This document shows positions 38,334 to 43,801 of a DNA stretch of 64,000 nucleotides, one piece after another. Source of the DNA: Telmatospirillum sp. (GTDB lineage: Bacteria > Pseudomonadota > Alphaproteobacteria > CACIAM-22H2); contig JADCGL010000003.1 of NCBI GenBank assembly GCA_020248985.1, positions 1 through 64,000 of the forward strand. The letters are read 5' to 3'. A model generated the notes under the pieces. That model did no database searches. It saw nothing but the letters and a program-made list of their open reading frames with translations, and had not been told where the DNA came from. How positions within the stretch are numbered: the first letter of the stretch is position 1; each line of letters opens with the position of its first letter. Made by a program: the position numbers and the translations under genes.

Positions 38334-39167
38334 ATGCAGATTCTGTCTCTCCAATCTTCCGTCGCGACCGGCGCCGTCGGCAATTCGGCGGCGGTGTTTT
38401 GCCTGCAGCGCCTGGGCTACGACGTGGCGCGCATCGACACGGTGCGCTTCTCGAACCATCCCGGCCATGGCGGCTTTGCGGGCGGCCCGGCCGATGCCGG
38501 CGAGATGGCCGCCCTCGTTGCCGGGATCGATGCGCGCGGCCTGTTCGACGGGTGCCGCTGCGTGCTGTCGGGCTATCTCGGCAGCGGTGCCCAAGGCGCC
38601 GTGGTTGCCGACGCGGTCGCGCGCGCCAAACGCGCCAATCCTGCCGCGTTTTTCGCACTCGACCCGGTGATGGGCGATCGCGGCCGCGTGTTCGTGAAGC
38701 CCGACACGGTCGATGCCGTGCGCGCGCTCGAACCGTTGGCCGATTTGCTGTTTCCCAACGCGTTCGAACTCGGCCTCCTGACCGGCGACACGGTCGCGAC
38801 CGCGGCCGACGCCGTGGCGGCTGCACAAAAACTGCGCAACAGCCGACCGGCCCGCATCGTCGTGGCGACCTCGGTGCCGCTGGCGGACGGGATCGGCACG
38901 CTGGCGGTCGGCCCCGCCGGCGCCTATCTCGCGCGATCGCCTGCAATCGACCATCCGGCCTACGGTGCGGGCGATGCGTTTGCCGCCCTTTTCCTCGCGC
39001 ATTATCTGGCCGGCGAAACGCTTGCCGACTGCCTTCAAAAAGCCGTGGCTGCCGTCCACGCTGTTTTGACCGCAACGGCCAAGGCAGGTGCGCTCGACCT
39101 GCTTTTGGTGGCTTGCCAGCGGGACTTGGCGCATCCGCCCGTGCTTTTCCCGGTCGCCGAACTTTAG
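38334..39167 (+). CDS. pdxY: pyridoxal kinase
   Basis: A 277-residue ribokinase-fold enzyme of the PdxY/PdxK group that phosphorylates pyridoxal in the vitamin B6 salvage pathway. Typical features are MQILSLQSSVATGAVGNSAA at the N-terminus, FSNHPGHGG, ALDPVMGD and the catalytic aspartate in YGAGDAFAA. Length fits the family. It is followed after 40 bases by a LysE-type exporter gene. Confidence 0.92.
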   Translation: MQILSLQSSVATGAVGNSAAVFCLQRLGYDVARIDTVRFSNHPGHGGFAGGPADAGEMAALVAGIDARGLFDGCRCVLSGYLGSGAQGAVVADAVARAKRANPAAFFALDPVMGDRGRVFVKPDTVDAVRALEPLADLLFPNAFELGLLTGDTVATAADAVAAAQKLRNSRPARIVVATSVPLADGIGTLAVGPAGAYLARSPAIDHPAYGAGDAFAALFLAHYLAGETLADCLQKAVAAVHAVLTATAKAGALDLLLVACQRDLAHPPVLFPVAEL

Positions 39168-39207
39168 TATAGGAACACGACGCACTTTTTCTGGCACAGC
39201 AGGCCGA

Positions 39208-39843
39208 ATGCTCGAGTGGATCTTCGTCAAAGGTGTGTTGGTTGGCTTGCTGATCGCCGCACCGGTGGGCCCGGTGAACGTTCTCGTGATCCGGCGCACG
39301 CTGGTGAACGGGCGCTTGGCCGGCCTGTTTTCGGGGCTCGGCTCGGCCCTTGCCGACACCGCCTTCGGCGCCATTGCGGCCTTCGGCATTTCGATGCTGC
39401 AGACCTTCCTCGAACGCGAGCGCGACGTGGTCTCGCTCGTGGGGGCGGCCATCCTGTGCGTGATGGGCTTCAAGCTTCTCTATCGCCCGCTGCCCTCGAT
39501 CGCCGGCGACAAAGACCCCGCCGGGCTGGTCGGCGATCTTACGTCGGCGTTTTTCCTGACCATCACCAACCCGATCACGGTGCTGTCGTTCTTGGCGATC
39601 TTCGCGGCCTTCGGCGTCAAATCCGACGGCACCGTGCTGGCCGACGATTGGCTGCTGATCGCCGGCGTGCTTGCGGGTGCCGCGTTCTGGTGGGCGATGG
39701 TCGTGGAGGCCGTGTGCCTGTTCCGCGACCGCTTCACGACCACGGGCCTTGCCTGGGCCAACCGGATCGCCGCCTACATCATCCTCGCCTTTGCGGTCGG
39801 CGTCGCCGGCGAAGTGGCGTTGCGCTTTTGGGGCTATCTCTAA
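39208..39843 (+). CDS. LysE/RhtB family exporter
   Basis: A 211-residue inner-membrane protein with six predicted helices. The family start VGLLIAAPVGPVNVLVIRRT is clear, as is FFLTITNPITVLSFLAIFAA. These proteins export amino acids or derivatives; the substrate is unknown. It is the last gene before the AT-rich insertion. Confidence 0.9.
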   Translation: MLEWIFVKGVLVGLLIAAPVGPVNVLVIRRTLVNGRLAGLFSGLGSALADTAFGAIAAFGISMLQTFLERERDVVSLVGAAILCVMGFKLLYRPLPSIAGDKDPAGLVGDLTSAFFLTITNPITVLSFLAIFAAFGVKSDGTVLADDWLLIAGVLAGAAFWWAMVVEAVCLFRDRFTTTGLAWANRIAAYIILAFAVGVAGEVALRFWGYL

Positions 39844-40197
39844 AAAGAATAGGTTACCAAACGCGACAAAAGGCAACGGTCGCCTGTTTAGCGCGTTGAA
39901 TTTCCACGCATGTAACCGCCGCGACGATTTCGGTTACGCGTTTCCGACGCTGCAAATCTCGCTGTTTTCCGTCCATATTCACTTTTCAAACAGCACACGC
40001 CAACGAGCAACCATAAGCGCTACTGCAGTTTAACAAAAGACGCCGGGTTCCGAAAGCATGCCTGACGAATAGTGAATTTCTATCGATATCCAAAAGTAGA
40101 CGAACCTCATGCCGAACACGGCCCTACGAAATTCAATCAATCTCTAATCTAAGATAGAATTAACAAGAGTATCCCCAGAAATTTAGAATTATGGAAA
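39844..40197. other. AT-richer non-coding stretch at left edge of the insertion
   Basis: 354 bases with no credible gene on either strand and base composition unlike the flanking core. It holds a 7-base inverted repeat (GTAACCG at 39912-39918, CGGTTAC at 39931-39937) with no T-run, which could be a weak terminator of the exporter gene or a protein site. Confidence 0.5.
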
Positions 40198-40809
40198 TTA
40201 TAGGTGCCCCGCTACGACACCGAATGCAGCATCGACCATACGGCTCCCAATTTTTTCCACTATAGATTTGACTTTGTGCTTATTCAGCTCAAGCCTGAAC
40301 TGCTGTAAAACTCGGTCTGTATCGTTTGAGTTTATTGGCAAATAAGGATCAATGCCGAGGCCGCTAGTTGCGCGTAAAATGCATTCATGGGTAACTTCAA
40401 ACCTTTTTATATAGTGTTTGTGATCCGCAATTTTTTTACCATCGAACGGAATGACAACCGATTGCCTTCCAAATTGAGCGCTAGTCGGATCAAAAAAGAC
40501 TGCACACAAATCTGGTAAGTTAATTCCTACTTCCTTCATCACAGTCCGAACTCTCTCGATGTGTTGATGAAGAAAATGACTTTCAGTCCACAGGACCTTT
40601 CCTTCTGGACGCCATTCCGATTTGGCATAGACAGCCAAATGCCAAGTCTCCCTAACTACGTTGTTAAAGATATCCACATAGCGTTCCGCAAAATCAACAC
40701 TCTGGCGGGGAGACGCTGCGACCAGGATGCTCCAAAGGCCCCTATGTACAATCTTGCCGTCTCTGCGATAAGTGTTCGCATATTCTTCAATCGATCCAGC
40801 TGGAAACAT
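40198..40809 (-). CDS. hypothetical protein, AT-rich accessory gene
   Basis: I do not recognise this 203-residue protein. It is soluble, without signal or membrane segments. Notable stretches are SILVAASPRQSVDFAERYVD, ESHFLHQHIERVRTVMKEVG and AVFFDPTSAQFGRQSVVIPF. Codon use is AT-richer than all core neighbours, indicating transfer. ATG at 40809 is chosen because GAGGA lies 6 bases before it. A good promoter is visible upstream. It stands alone beside a decayed IS1595-type element; a defence or mobile-element role is possible but unsupported. Confidence 0.7.
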   Translation of the reverse strand: MFPAGSIEEYANTYRRDGKIVHRGLWSILVAASPRQSVDFAERYVDIFNNVVRETWHLAVYAKSEWRPEGKVLWTESHFLHQHIERVRTVMKEVGINLPDLCAVFFDPTSAQFGRQSVVIPFDGKKIADHKHYIKRFEVTHECILRATSGLGIDPYLPINSNDTDRVLQQFRLELNKHKVKSIVEKIGSRMVDAAFGVVAGHL

Positions 40810-40841
40810 CGTTTTCCTCAAAAGTGGATTCGTATCATCTA

Positions 40842-40870
40842 ACTTTACGTCGTACTCTGTCTGTTATCAA
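40842..40870 (-). promoter_or_regulatory. probable promoter of the accessory gene at 40198-40809
   Basis: On the minus strand TTGATA (40870-40865) and TAAAGT (40847-40842) are separated by exactly 17 bases and lie 32 bases before the start codon. Both hexamers match the sigma-70 consensus in at least four positions. Confidence 0.45.
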
Positions 40871-40943
40871 GATTTGACGGTGATATACTTGACGTACCCT
40901 CTGACTAGAGGTCGAATTTAAGCGTTTTAAAAACGAAGGTGGC

Positions 40944-41678
40944 ATGTGCGTTTTTTCCGCCACCTACTTTCACGAAGAACCCGCTGCTTACGCCTACCTT
41001 GAAAGCATAATCTGGCCCAATGGCTCGGTTTGCCCTCATTATGGAAACTGCGAGGTTGAGCGGATTGGAGTTTTGAAGGGCAAAAGCACCGGCATTGGCG
41101 TTCGAAAGTGCTACGCCTGCCGCAAGCAGTTTACGGTTAAGGTGGGAACGGTGATTGAGTCCTAGGACATCCCGCTACACAAGATATTGCAGGCGGTCTA
41201 CTTGCTCACGTCGAGCAAGAAGGGCTTTAGCGTGCACCAACCGCACCACGTCTTAGAGATTACCTACAAGTCCGCTTGGTTTTTGGCTCACTGCATTCAC
41301 GAGGCCATGCGTACCGGCGGACTGGCACCGAAGGGCGGCAATGGCGGTATCTTCGAGATCGACGAAACCTACATCGGTAACTAGACGGTCACGCCCAAGC
41401 ATCGTGGTTTTGGTCACAATCATGCGGTCCTGACCCTCGTTAGCCGCGAGGGTGAGGCCCGCTCGTTCGCGGTAGAGAACGCCAAGATAACTGCCGTCTG
41501 GCCGGCGGCCCTCGAAAATGTCGCCCGCGAAGCTCGCGCTATGACTGACGAGCCCCGCCAGTACCAGAATGTCTGGCGTGGCCTTTGCCGATCATGGCGC
41601 CGTACATCACGCAGGTGGCGACGGATAATCGTGGGCATTGTTGGAAAACGACTCAAATATCAACACCCTAGTATCTAA
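40944..41678 (+). pseudogene. decayed IS1595-family transposase
   Basis: One frame from ATG 40944 to TAA 41678 carries transposase sequence, interrupted by two in-frame stops (TAG at 41163-41165 and TAG at 41382-41384). Recognisable parts are the zinc ribbon (one cysteine changed: CPHYGN; second pair in VRKCYACRKQFTV), LLTSSKKGFS, the first catalytic Asp in FEIDETYIG, and the ending GKRLKYQH. Around 41580 the +1 frame reads FADHGAVHHA, which continues the family pattern, so a frameshift and a deletion of the later catalytic residues have also occurred. The element cannot be autonomous. Confidence 0.85.
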
Positions 41679-41712
41679 GAAGTTCAGGATTTGACGCGAA
41701 TCGACGATTGAT

Positions 41713-41820
41713 TCATAGTCGCGTTGCGGTGACACGGTGAATCTCCTGGCCGTACTGGTGCCGTTTGATGGCTTGGCGGCCCTTGGCTAGGCGAGAAACT
41801 AGATTAGGAGTCTCGCCCAT
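41713..41820 (-). CDS. possible small ORF, 35 residues
   Basis: A minus-strand frame from ATG 41820 to TGA 41713 encodes a basic peptide beginning MGETPNLVSRLAKGRQAIKR and containing HQYGQEIHRVTATRL. The composition looks protein-like and could be the tail of a larger lost gene. No ribosome site is visible, and a strong hairpin lies just upstream. I do not recognise it. Confidence 0.25.
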   Translation of the reverse strand: MGETPNLVSRLAKGRQAIKRHQYGQEIHRVTATRL

Positions 41821-41829
41821 CGCAAAACA

Positions 41830-41863
41830 CGGCGCTCGGCCATCACCGAGCGCCGACTTTTTT
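41830..41863. terminator. strong intrinsic terminator, probably bidirectional
   Basis: A perfect 10-base stem (CGGCGCTCGG at 41830-41839 with CCGAGCGCCG at 41846-41855), loop of 6, then a T-run at 41858-41863 on the plus strand. On the minus strand it begins six bases after the stop codon of the gene at 41862-42293 and is followed by TGTTTTG, so it likely ends that transcript too. A second 7-base inverted repeat stands at 41790-41817. Confidence 0.8.
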
Positions 41864-42293
41864 AACGGATTCTCTTTCCGCGTCTCGTAAGGCGATCAAG
41901 GTCTTTTTCGTCTATTTTGTGATAAGTCCTCACCCAAAGCTCATTTGTCTGCACTATCCCTCTTACAACCAGCTTAAATCCACTGCCAAAAACTGCGTCT
42001 TCGAAATGGGCAAAAACAAGATCGCCCCGTTCGTGAAGCACAACACCGCGAGATATGCAGTCTGGTATTACGGCATAATGTATTGGCAAAAGGCGGTGCT
42101 TTTCCCGCATCTTTTCAGCGCAATACTGGCCAAGTCTTACCGAGGTTGCCGTTATACCCAGAATCGCAGAGTATTCCGGCGGAAGAACGCCAACTTGAAC
42201 TGAGGTTGTTCCGCTTCCATTTATGAAACGGATTATTTGTCGAAAGGTCGCGGTCACGCTGAGAGATTGGATGCCCGGAAACCCTGTAGGCAA
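41862..42293 (-). CDS. hypothetical protein, possible PBECR/RelE-like nuclease fold
   Basis: About 143 residues in AT-richer DNA. The second half has alternating strands and a basic end: GDLVFAHFEDAVFGSGFKLV, ELWVRTYHKI and DRLTRRGKRIR. This pattern reminds me of the phage-associated Barnase/EndoU/ColicinE5/RelE-like (PBECR) domains, small RNases or toxins, but the match is by eye only. The start is doubtful: TTG at 42293 has no ribosome site. Only one internal Met occurs, at about residue 61. No antitoxin-like partner overlaps it. Confidence 0.5.
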   Translation of the reverse strand: MPTGFPGIQSLSVTATFRQIIRFINGSGTTSVQVGVLPPEYSAILGITATSVRLGQYCAEKMREKHRLLPIHYAVIPDCISRGVVLHERGDLVFAHFEDAVFGSGFKLVVRGIVQTNELWVRTYHKIDEKDLDRLTRRGKRIR

Positions 42294-42401
42294 GAAAAAA
42301 TCTCAAGCGGAAGTTTTTTCAGAGGTCGCCCGCACTGCCGAGTGCGACGAAAAATCAGCACTTTGAGCATCGCATGAAACGGGAAATAGAATCCACTTCT
42401 G

Positions 42402-42437
42402 GAAAAGAAACAAAGCAGCCCGCCAAATAAGCGGGCT
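42402..42437 (-). terminator. intrinsic terminator of the small gene at 42495-42749
   Basis: Read on the minus strand: a 7-base stem AGCCCGC/GCGGGCT (42437-42431 with 42423-42417, loop of 7) followed by a T-rich stretch, GCTTTGTTTCTTTT. It lies 58 bases beyond the stop codon. Confidence 0.6.
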
Positions 42438-42494
42438 TCGACGTTATCGAGCCCTTTGCCGGCAATGCGAACCTCGCGAGGCTGATGCTAGCAC

Positions 42495-42749
42495 TTAATT
42501 CAACCCGCCACGCACTATGCGAAGATCTGGGGGTTGAGGCCCATCAAGTGTCTTCAGAATTGACCTTAGTATCTGATAGTCCAGCCGATCAGACTGGGCT
42601 CCAGGAAAGTCGATAGTTCCCTTTATGGCGTCCTCAAATTGCCCGGGCAGTAATGCCCCCGTTTTTTGAAGACACTTGGCAAGAAGCGCGATGGCAACAA
42701 CGGCCCCATTTGATAGCGCGGCAATGCGCTCAATGTCTCGTTCGTCCAT
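42495..42749 (-). CDS. small hypothetical protein, 84 residues
   Basis: A soluble, mostly helical protein (DERDIERIAALSNGAVVAIA; LLAKCLQKTGALLPGQFEDA) that I do not recognise. GGAGG touches a first ATG at 42755 but stands six bases before the second at 42749, so the second is the likelier start. TATACT about 40 bases upstream could be a -10 element, overlapped by the inverted repeat GTATAT/ATATAC. It has its own terminator, so it is an independent unit within the AT-rich insertion. Confidence 0.6.
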   Translation of the reverse strand: MDERDIERIAALSNGAVVAIALLAKCLQKTGALLPGQFEDAIKGTIDFPGAQSDRLDYQILRSILKTLDGPQPPDLRIVRGGLN

Positions 42750-43051
42750 ATTCATCCTCCAATGGTTAAAGGTTTGCGCAGTCTACCATTAGTATATAGG
42801 TACGCCAAATATACAAACGCCCAAGATTTAACCCAGATTATTTCAGCATTTTTGACTTAATGTGATTTATCCGTCGCAGAATAAATGCGACTACGAAAAT
42901 CCACTATCAGCTGGCATACAATACAATCCGGCTAGTTCAGTTCGAGACCGGAACGCGGACGCCGTGCATTGTGCAATGTGGCGGGCAACTCGAGCGCACC
43001 AGAGCCACAATCGAGAAGCAAAATTGGCACGATCGGCCGCCGATAGTCGCG
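42750..43051. other. right edge of the AT-rich insertion, no gene seen
   Basis: The left half is AT-rich and contains the promoter region of the small gene at 42495-42749. From about 42940 the composition returns to the GC-rich core pattern. No coding frame is credible on either strand. Confidence 0.5.
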
Positions 43052-43801
43052 TCAGCTGGCGGGCACCAGCTGATCGAGCAACGCCGGGAAGCGGGCGCGC
43101 ACCTGGGCCTGGCGCGCGTGCCAGCGTTCGGGCGACAGATATTGCGGCCGGTAGGTCGGGCCCGGCTCGATATCGACCGTGCGCGTGAGCATGCCCGGGC
43201 GCAGCGGCTGTTCGCGCGCGACCGTGCCCGGCGTTTCGAGCTGGCGGGCAATTTCGCGCGGGCCCGCCATGCAGATTTCGTCGTCCTGCGGGCGGCGGGC
43301 GGCAAGGCTCTGTTCGAGGGCGCGCGCTTCCGAGCGCAAACGCACGCGCCGCTCCTGCGGCAGATTGCGTGCGTAGTGCAGCAGGGCCGCGCGCGCGGCG
43401 AGGATCTGGCGCACGCGCATGTCGGGCGCTTCGGTGTCGGCGCATTTTGCACCGTCCACCGCGACGGCCAAGATCGTCGAGATCAGCACCAGCACGGCTT
43501 CGGCGCGCAAGGGTTCGTTGCGCTGGCCCTCGCCGATCTGCCACAGCAGATCGCCATAGGCGACGCCGATCAGATGCGGGGCCCCCGCCTGCAATCGCGC
43601 CTGCGCCCAGCCGAGCACGGCGCGCGCCTGCGCTTCGTCGCGCGGGGCGAACATCGCCTGCGCCGTCGCTTTGTATTGGCGCGCGGCGTAAAGCCGGTCG
43701 AGCTCGGCAAGATTGGGCGGCGGTGCAGCGGCAGGCGCCTGGGCGAGCGCCTGCAGCGGCACCAAAAGCAGCAGCAGAAAAGCCGCCGCCAACCGCTTCA
43801 T
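43052..43801 (-). CDS. secreted hypothetical protein coupled to asd
   Basis: A 249-residue protein with a clear Sec signal peptide (residues 1-21, AAAFLLLLLVPLQALAQ). The mature part is Ala/Arg-rich and largely helical (LAELDRLYAARQYKATAQAM; RNLPQERRVRLRSEARALEQ) with two isolated cysteines. No domain is recognised. Its ATG overlaps the asd stop codon (ATGA), so it is translated with asd, although no functional link is evident. Confidence 0.72.
   Translation of the reverse strand: MKRLAAAFLLLLLVPLQALAQAPAAAPPPNLAELDRLYAARQYKATAQAMFAPRDEAQARAVLGWAQARLQAGAPHLIGVAYGDLLWQIGEGQRNEPLRAEAVLVLISTILAVAVDGAKCADTEAPDMRVRQILAARAALLHYARNLPQERRVRLRSEARALEQSLAARRPQDDEICMAGPREIARQLETPGTVAREQPLRPGMLTRTVDIEPGPTYRPQYLSPERWHARQAQVRARFPALLDQLVPAS

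Follow-up and report, generated by a model that had tools for sequence, protein, structure and literature searches.

The window considered here, a stretch of 64,000 nucleotides from Telmatospirillum sp., is part of contig C23 of a 4.30 Mb genome in 44 contigs (G000). Between a gene for a LysE-type exporter (lysE) and the asd operon it carries an AT-rich stretch which consists of two adjacent things, an older dispersed repeat and a younger foreign insertion. We favour, at a probability of about 85 %, a history in two layers in which the repeat came first and an insertion of mobile-element debris was then gained by G000 alone. The first-pass annotation of this DNA had described positions 39844-42940 as a single AT-rich insertion of about 3 kb. 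The stretch itself was confirmed; however, its left part is the separate repeat, and the right end lies at about 43025. Those left 214 base pairs (bp), an older multicopy repeat with a boxA of the type found in ribosomal RNA (rRNA) leaders, had been missed. The features are collected in Table 1.

Table 1 Features of the AT-rich stretch and its flanks (positions in the window)
Feature	Position	Strand	Basis
LysE-type exporter, conserved left flank	39208..39843	+	orthologue adjoining same right neighbour in 10/10 congeners
Copy of the ~228-bp dispersed repeat, predates insertion	39846..40059	- (boxA reading direction)	nhmmer hit of 154.5 bits covering profile positions 2-223 of 228
boxA-like GCTGTTTGAAAAGTGAA	39978..39994	-	sole window match at <=2 mismatches, 0.04 expected
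Species-specific insertion, approximate ends	40060..43025	.	absent in 10/10 congeners; junction comparison
Gene A, 203 amino acids, orphan	40198..40809	-	GAGG before ATG at 40809; codon adaptation index 0.26
IS1595-type transposase fossil, end approximate	40944..41680	+	zinc ribbon over Pfam cut-off; stops; DNA likeness to plasmid IS1595
Strong hairpin, terminator-like on both strands	41830..41855	.	11 pairs, 9 G-C
Gene B, 143 codons from TTG, MuF-C/PBECR relative	41862..42293	-	profile and family comparison
Gene C, 84 amino acids, orphan	42495..42749	-	GGAGG before ATG at 42749; codon adaptation index 0.26
Gene before asd, conserved right flank	43052..43801	-	orthologue in 10/10 congeners

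The GC content is 0.649 in the window as against 0.491 across positions 40011-43031. In profile it lies between 0.42 and 0.58 from about 39.8 to 43.1 kb and between 0.60 and 0.71 on either flank, in agreement with the annotated shift. That the DNA is a foreign insertion is borne out by a clean empty site in the relatives. In congener G002 the flanks align with G000 up to position 40010 and again from 43034, with 72 bp between; in G003 the alignment runs up to 40001 and resumes at 43032, with 79 bp between. The other eight congeners have neither repeat nor island, and the ends of lysE and of the right neighbour lie 2-30 nucleotides (nt) apart in tblastn alignments. Since the relatives show the empty site, the insertion is specific to G000 among the ten congeners compared, and because their spacer has diverged its ends are uncertain by some tens of bases. 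Codon use is foreign as well: the codon adaptation index (CAI), taken relative to the neighbouring genes, is 0.26 for genes A, B and C versus 0.68-0.76 for five neighbours. The opposite case, named in the first-pass annotation as the observation that would speak against an insertion, is the occurrence of these genes at the locus across the genus and with ordinary codon use; it was not found, as 0/10 congeners carry the island. The edges had been reported as free of transfer RNA (tRNA) genes, and indeed none was found anywhere in the window.

In the proposed course of events, a clade-specific repeat of about 230 bp would have reached the site after lysE before G000, G002 and G003 diverged. An AT-rich foreign piece of some 3.0 kb would then have entered, in G000 only, right next to the outer end of the repeat, between two convergent genes. 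The foreign piece may be seen as debris of mobile elements: a dead IS1595 copy, a solo relative (gene B) of the RNase domain with BECR fold in which the MuF head protein of phages ends, and two orphans whose frames are intact (A and C). A phage or plasmid would be the probable source. As a whole the island is clear yet ordinary acquired DNA in decay, with one informative gene, B.

Several points weigh against this history. Searches of the genome itself, of the relatives and of phage- and plasmid-type databases revealed neither a donor nor a second copy of the island, and the source is therefore only inferred. The ends are blurred and show no clear target duplication; gene B itself matched no Pfam family at an expectation value (E) of up to 1; and A and C as genes rest on their start sites and composition, because no relatives of them were found. 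Two other explanations have to be considered for the stretch as such. Nothing beyond logical possibility speaks for an ancestral state with later loss in the relatives; it requires loss in ten congeners, in eight of which the neighbouring genes nearly abut, leaves the foreign codon use unexplained and is extremely improbable. An assembly error joining foreign contig sequence into the genome would agree with an island seen in G000 alone and with an assembly of 44 contigs. Yet the island lies in the interior of a 214-kb contig, both flanks are syntenic with ten congeners, and its parts differ in age, which makes such an artefact very improbable.

The repeat is more interesting than the island. 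In G002 and G003 (89-91 % identical) it occupies the corresponding place after lysE and is, because of this shared position, older than the insertion. When the AT-rich stretch was searched against its own genome, 15 further places were obtained, all of which match the first part only. A repeat model (R1) was built from 32 copies, and 32 candidates per genome were scored with it. It matches the copy in the window, which belongs to the training set, at 39830-40029 on the minus strand (E 7.4e-49), and it has matches in 7 of the 75 relatives, which all belong to one genus. The number of places is 26 in G000, 25 in G002, 27 in G003, 26 in G004, 14 in G006, 9 in G007 and 12 in G008, counts that include the training copies and some partial or weak places. 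A 19-base pattern of the repeat occurs 18, 19, 15, 15, 4, 5 and 4 times in the same genomes, respectively; it is absent in G001, G005, G009 and G010, and the reversed pattern occurs in none of the 11 genomes. Of 22 G000 copies examined, a set that includes the one in the window, twelve share both flanks with a copy in G003 and four with a copy in G004, as compared with incomplete copy sets of these two genomes. A right-hand gene was called for 44 copies and is directed into the element in 35 of them; the left-hand orientation is mixed (54 copies, rough gene caller).

The family matches no entry of the libraries used. Rfam gave nothing at E up to 1 within 38500-43500, and two matches at 3.4 and 3.8 were located elsewhere; no match was found on plasmids. 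An identity as rRNA or tRNA locus was rejected, as 55 element-bearing loci contained no rRNA gene and a single tRNA-Thr. The latter, the only RNA gene near these loci, is situated about 230 bp from a boxA-bearing copy (L162, G000:C17:109524).

The right part of the repeat is conserved and reads G(C/T)GCTGTTTGA(A/C)A(N)GTGAA on the minus strand, and GCTGTTTGA(A/C)A(N)GTGAA is common to the repeats and to L200. In L200, the one 16S leader that was found in G000, GCTGTTTGACAAGTGAA precedes the 16S gene by about 225 nt. The site in the window copy is one position off this leader of its own genome. A close variant is also present in the rRNA locus of G001, after its 16S gene. From the place in an rRNA leader and from a likeness to the boxA of other bacteria we read the signal as a probable boxA. 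The core TCAAACAGC occurs in 46 of 54 copies that were picked by the repeat profile and not by boxA, where it ranks among the two 9-mer blocks of highest conservation. Of the 69 distinct stretches with boxA, one of which is L200, 20 have a stem immediately before boxA that beats shuffled sequences (p <=0.05), with 3.5 expected; for the copy in the window p is 0.63. Upstream of the stem lies AT-rich DNA (GC 0.38) in which TAnnnT peaks at -36, and sigma-70 scores with 9 or more matches were obtained for 12/69 stretches versus 8/69 in shuffles. The fold of 32 aligned copies on the boxA strand comprises 14 pairs, of which 3 are changed on both sides, with a covariation of -0.41 kcal/mol. In two loci (L163, G000:C23:164000, and L196, G003:C1:1551017) the boxA leader is joined to a body unlike that of the main repeat, and a TCCTATATAGGA-like palindrome lies upstream; this suggests that the leader may be a module used with several bodies. 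In five loci of G006 and G008 (L117, L131, L133, L138 and L140) the bodies can be interpreted as an extended stem, GTCGC..TTTCAA..TTGAAA..GCGAC, with arms that by eye seem to change together between copies.

These features could belong to orphan boxA transcription units or to a DNA element with a captured piece of an rRNA leader. The latter, which might be a small non-autonomous mobile element or else consist of arrayed binding sites for proteins, would contain the leader piece by chance and would not be a transcription unit; we rate it at about even odds. The conserved ends and the palindromes GTAACC/GGTTAC and GGCGAC/GTCGCC would fit such an element, as would its presence at a given site, which differs between species (both flanks are common with G004 in just the four copies mentioned above), the scarce covariation in the aligned fold and the sigma-70 scores that barely exceed shuffles. 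It accounts less well for a boxA core that ranks so high in independently chosen copies, for the excess of stems before boxA and for the leader joined to different bodies in L163 and L196. Somewhat doubtful, though worth stating, is the idea that the repeat represents a multicopy family of small non-coding units which start like an rRNA operon, with promoter, boxB-like stem and boxA, about 25 per genome and limited to one clade of one genus. Their RNAs of about 200 nt might be sites outside rRNA at which the Nus antitermination complex is loaded, which would either carry transcription past Rho or make the RNAs a sponge for NusB/S10.

The order boxB-boxA-boxC after the rrn promoter is described in PMC10250234. 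The repeat shares with the rrn antitermination leader the boxA of its own genome, and often a putative stem stands right before it, as in this order (PMC10250234). Sites of boxA are also known upstream of suhB and of CRISPR arrays (PMC5725501; PMC7862264). From all of these the repeat differs by its many dispersed copies with no rRNA behind them, by a conserved body of about 200 bp and by the restriction to one clade of one genus. The survey in PMC5725501 deals with boxA upstream of genes, and non-coding RNAs are not considered there. No paper on a multicopy family of boxA units was found in the literature searched, which leaves out most subscription papers. If such units exist, a genome with about two dozen of them would allow one to ask for targets of Nus other than rRNA and could show whether boxA units compete with rRNA for the Nus complex. 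Nature would also have provided a test of one unit, by placing the 3-kb insertion at its upstream edge.

Within the island, gene B is the informative gene. The suggestion of a PBECR-like gene held in kind, through profile comparison and relatives fused to MuF, but not at the level of the Pfam cut-offs, all of which are missed. With B as query, near-full-length matches were obtained in three of 385 genomes of the class at E <0.005 (G399, E 1.3e-6; G281, 5.2e-5; G385, 0.0037), and a protein of G223 (E 0.015) was added as fourth relative on sequence fit. When B and the four were combined into a profile, 18 of the 385 genomes matched at E <=0.01, the five sources included. An N-terminal Phage_Mu_F domain was present in 5 of 10 newly found relatives scanned (E 5e-13 to 5e-24). 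Likeness to PBECR3 was seen in L102 (E 0.0014), L114 (E 0.0032) and the G223 protein (E 0.0012); the PBECR scores of the relatives, 14.7-19.2 bits, are all below the curated cut-offs of 27-30. When the 16-row family of B was aligned with 7 PBECR3 members, hhalign gave a probability of 94.6 %. By profile homology B is thus assigned to the MuF-C/PBECR group, phage RNases of the BECR fold (PF18810, PF18812, PF18819), with which it shares profile similarity, the His and the C-terminal S/T, and to which its relatives are tied by their fusion to Phage_Mu_F. It differs from them as a solo frame in a chromosomal island. Searches of IMG/VR and of phages with B or its relatives as query gave nothing, and the profile found nothing sure among the sequences of the PDB. 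The BECR fold has a helix followed by four or five strands; a single-sequence model of B shows this order but is too poor, with a predicted local distance difference test (pLDDT) value of 49.9, and Foldseek gave no match in 'viral' and 'pdb'. In one locus (L078, G281:C1), which contains other non-phage genes, a relative of B lies beside a frame at 2008-2700 that presumably resembles a Mu-type virion morphogenesis protein.

Residue H66 is conserved in 16/16 rows of the family alignment, and the column of T123 holds S/T in 14 of the 15 other rows. At S55 and K111, invariant in those 15 rows, B has G and R. The two exchanges were at first read as inactivation, a reading that was withdrawn: the active site of PBECR is named as a His and an S/T (PMC5512222), both of which B retains, and because of this a loss of activity is not established. 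Gene B has no ATG, and the first possible start is a TTG without a ribosome-binding site. Presumably B was once an RNase effector and is now drifting. That B and C, with or without A, instead form a working toxin-antitoxin or anti-phage module under selection, B being the RNase and C the antidote, is unlikely. C does precede B closely, shares its strand and has a good ribosome-binding site, and B keeps the His and S/T of the described active site (PMC5512222); but about 200 bp separate the two, no relative of C was near the relatives of B examined, PADLOC gave no match, and B lacks a clear start and departs at two otherwise invariant positions. With B the island adds one more solo relative of the MuF RNase domains of phages in a host chromosome, at a site that is empty in near relatives.

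The fossil transposase recognised in the first-pass annotation is real. Its Zn_ribbon_IS1595 match scores 39.6 bits (Pfam cut-off 25.4), and this zinc-ribbon domain is what it has in common with the IS1595 family, from which it differs by two stops and a truncation, so that the transposase is not intact. The frame from 40944 contains two TAG stops and is unreadable past about 41545; by these defects the copy is dead. Over parts of about 170-220 bp the DNA shows some 70 % identity to plasmid sequences with an IS1595 transposase annotation. A plasmid search with the fossil DNA gave 35 records, all with less than 80 % coverage of the query, and 9 of 10 among the matches listed bear the IS1595 transposase name. 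No clear terminal repeats delimit the copy; a 13-nt direct repeat at 40867 and 41684 may or may not belong to it.

The unknown frames of 203 and 84 residues, genes A and C, were both recovered, each with a Shine-Dalgarno sequence before its ATG. Length by itself says little about such frames, that of gene B included, as frames of at least 221 codons arise in 1.8 % and of at least 146 codons in 34 % of 1000 dinucleotide-preserving shuffles of the AT-rich stretch. Both may be translated. That they are likely expressed, as had been concluded from their own promoters and several terminators, is not supported: such matches are present, but they only mildly exceed chance, with 8 terminator-like sites versus 4.1 (standard deviation 2.2) and 6 promoter-like sites versus 3.2 (standard deviation 1.8) in shuffles. 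Gene A has nothing credible in Pfam, PADLOC, PHROGs, NCBIfam, the PDB sequences, plasmids, phages, IMG/VR and genome_contigs, nor in 96 relatives and the 385 class genomes. Its best match in the latter, 35 % identity over 69 residues inside a frame of 1391 codons, is not credible; the next (L149) was rejected since its frame is broken by stops, and the two weaker ones are L150 and L151. The single-sequence structure model of A is too poor for use (pLDDT 40.4). For gene C no relative was found in searches including Pfam and PADLOC. The GC content of gene A by codon position is 0.54/0.37/0.44. In gene C a 15-nt inverted repeat (42545-42559 and 42664-42678), 93 % complementary, has both arms within the frame.

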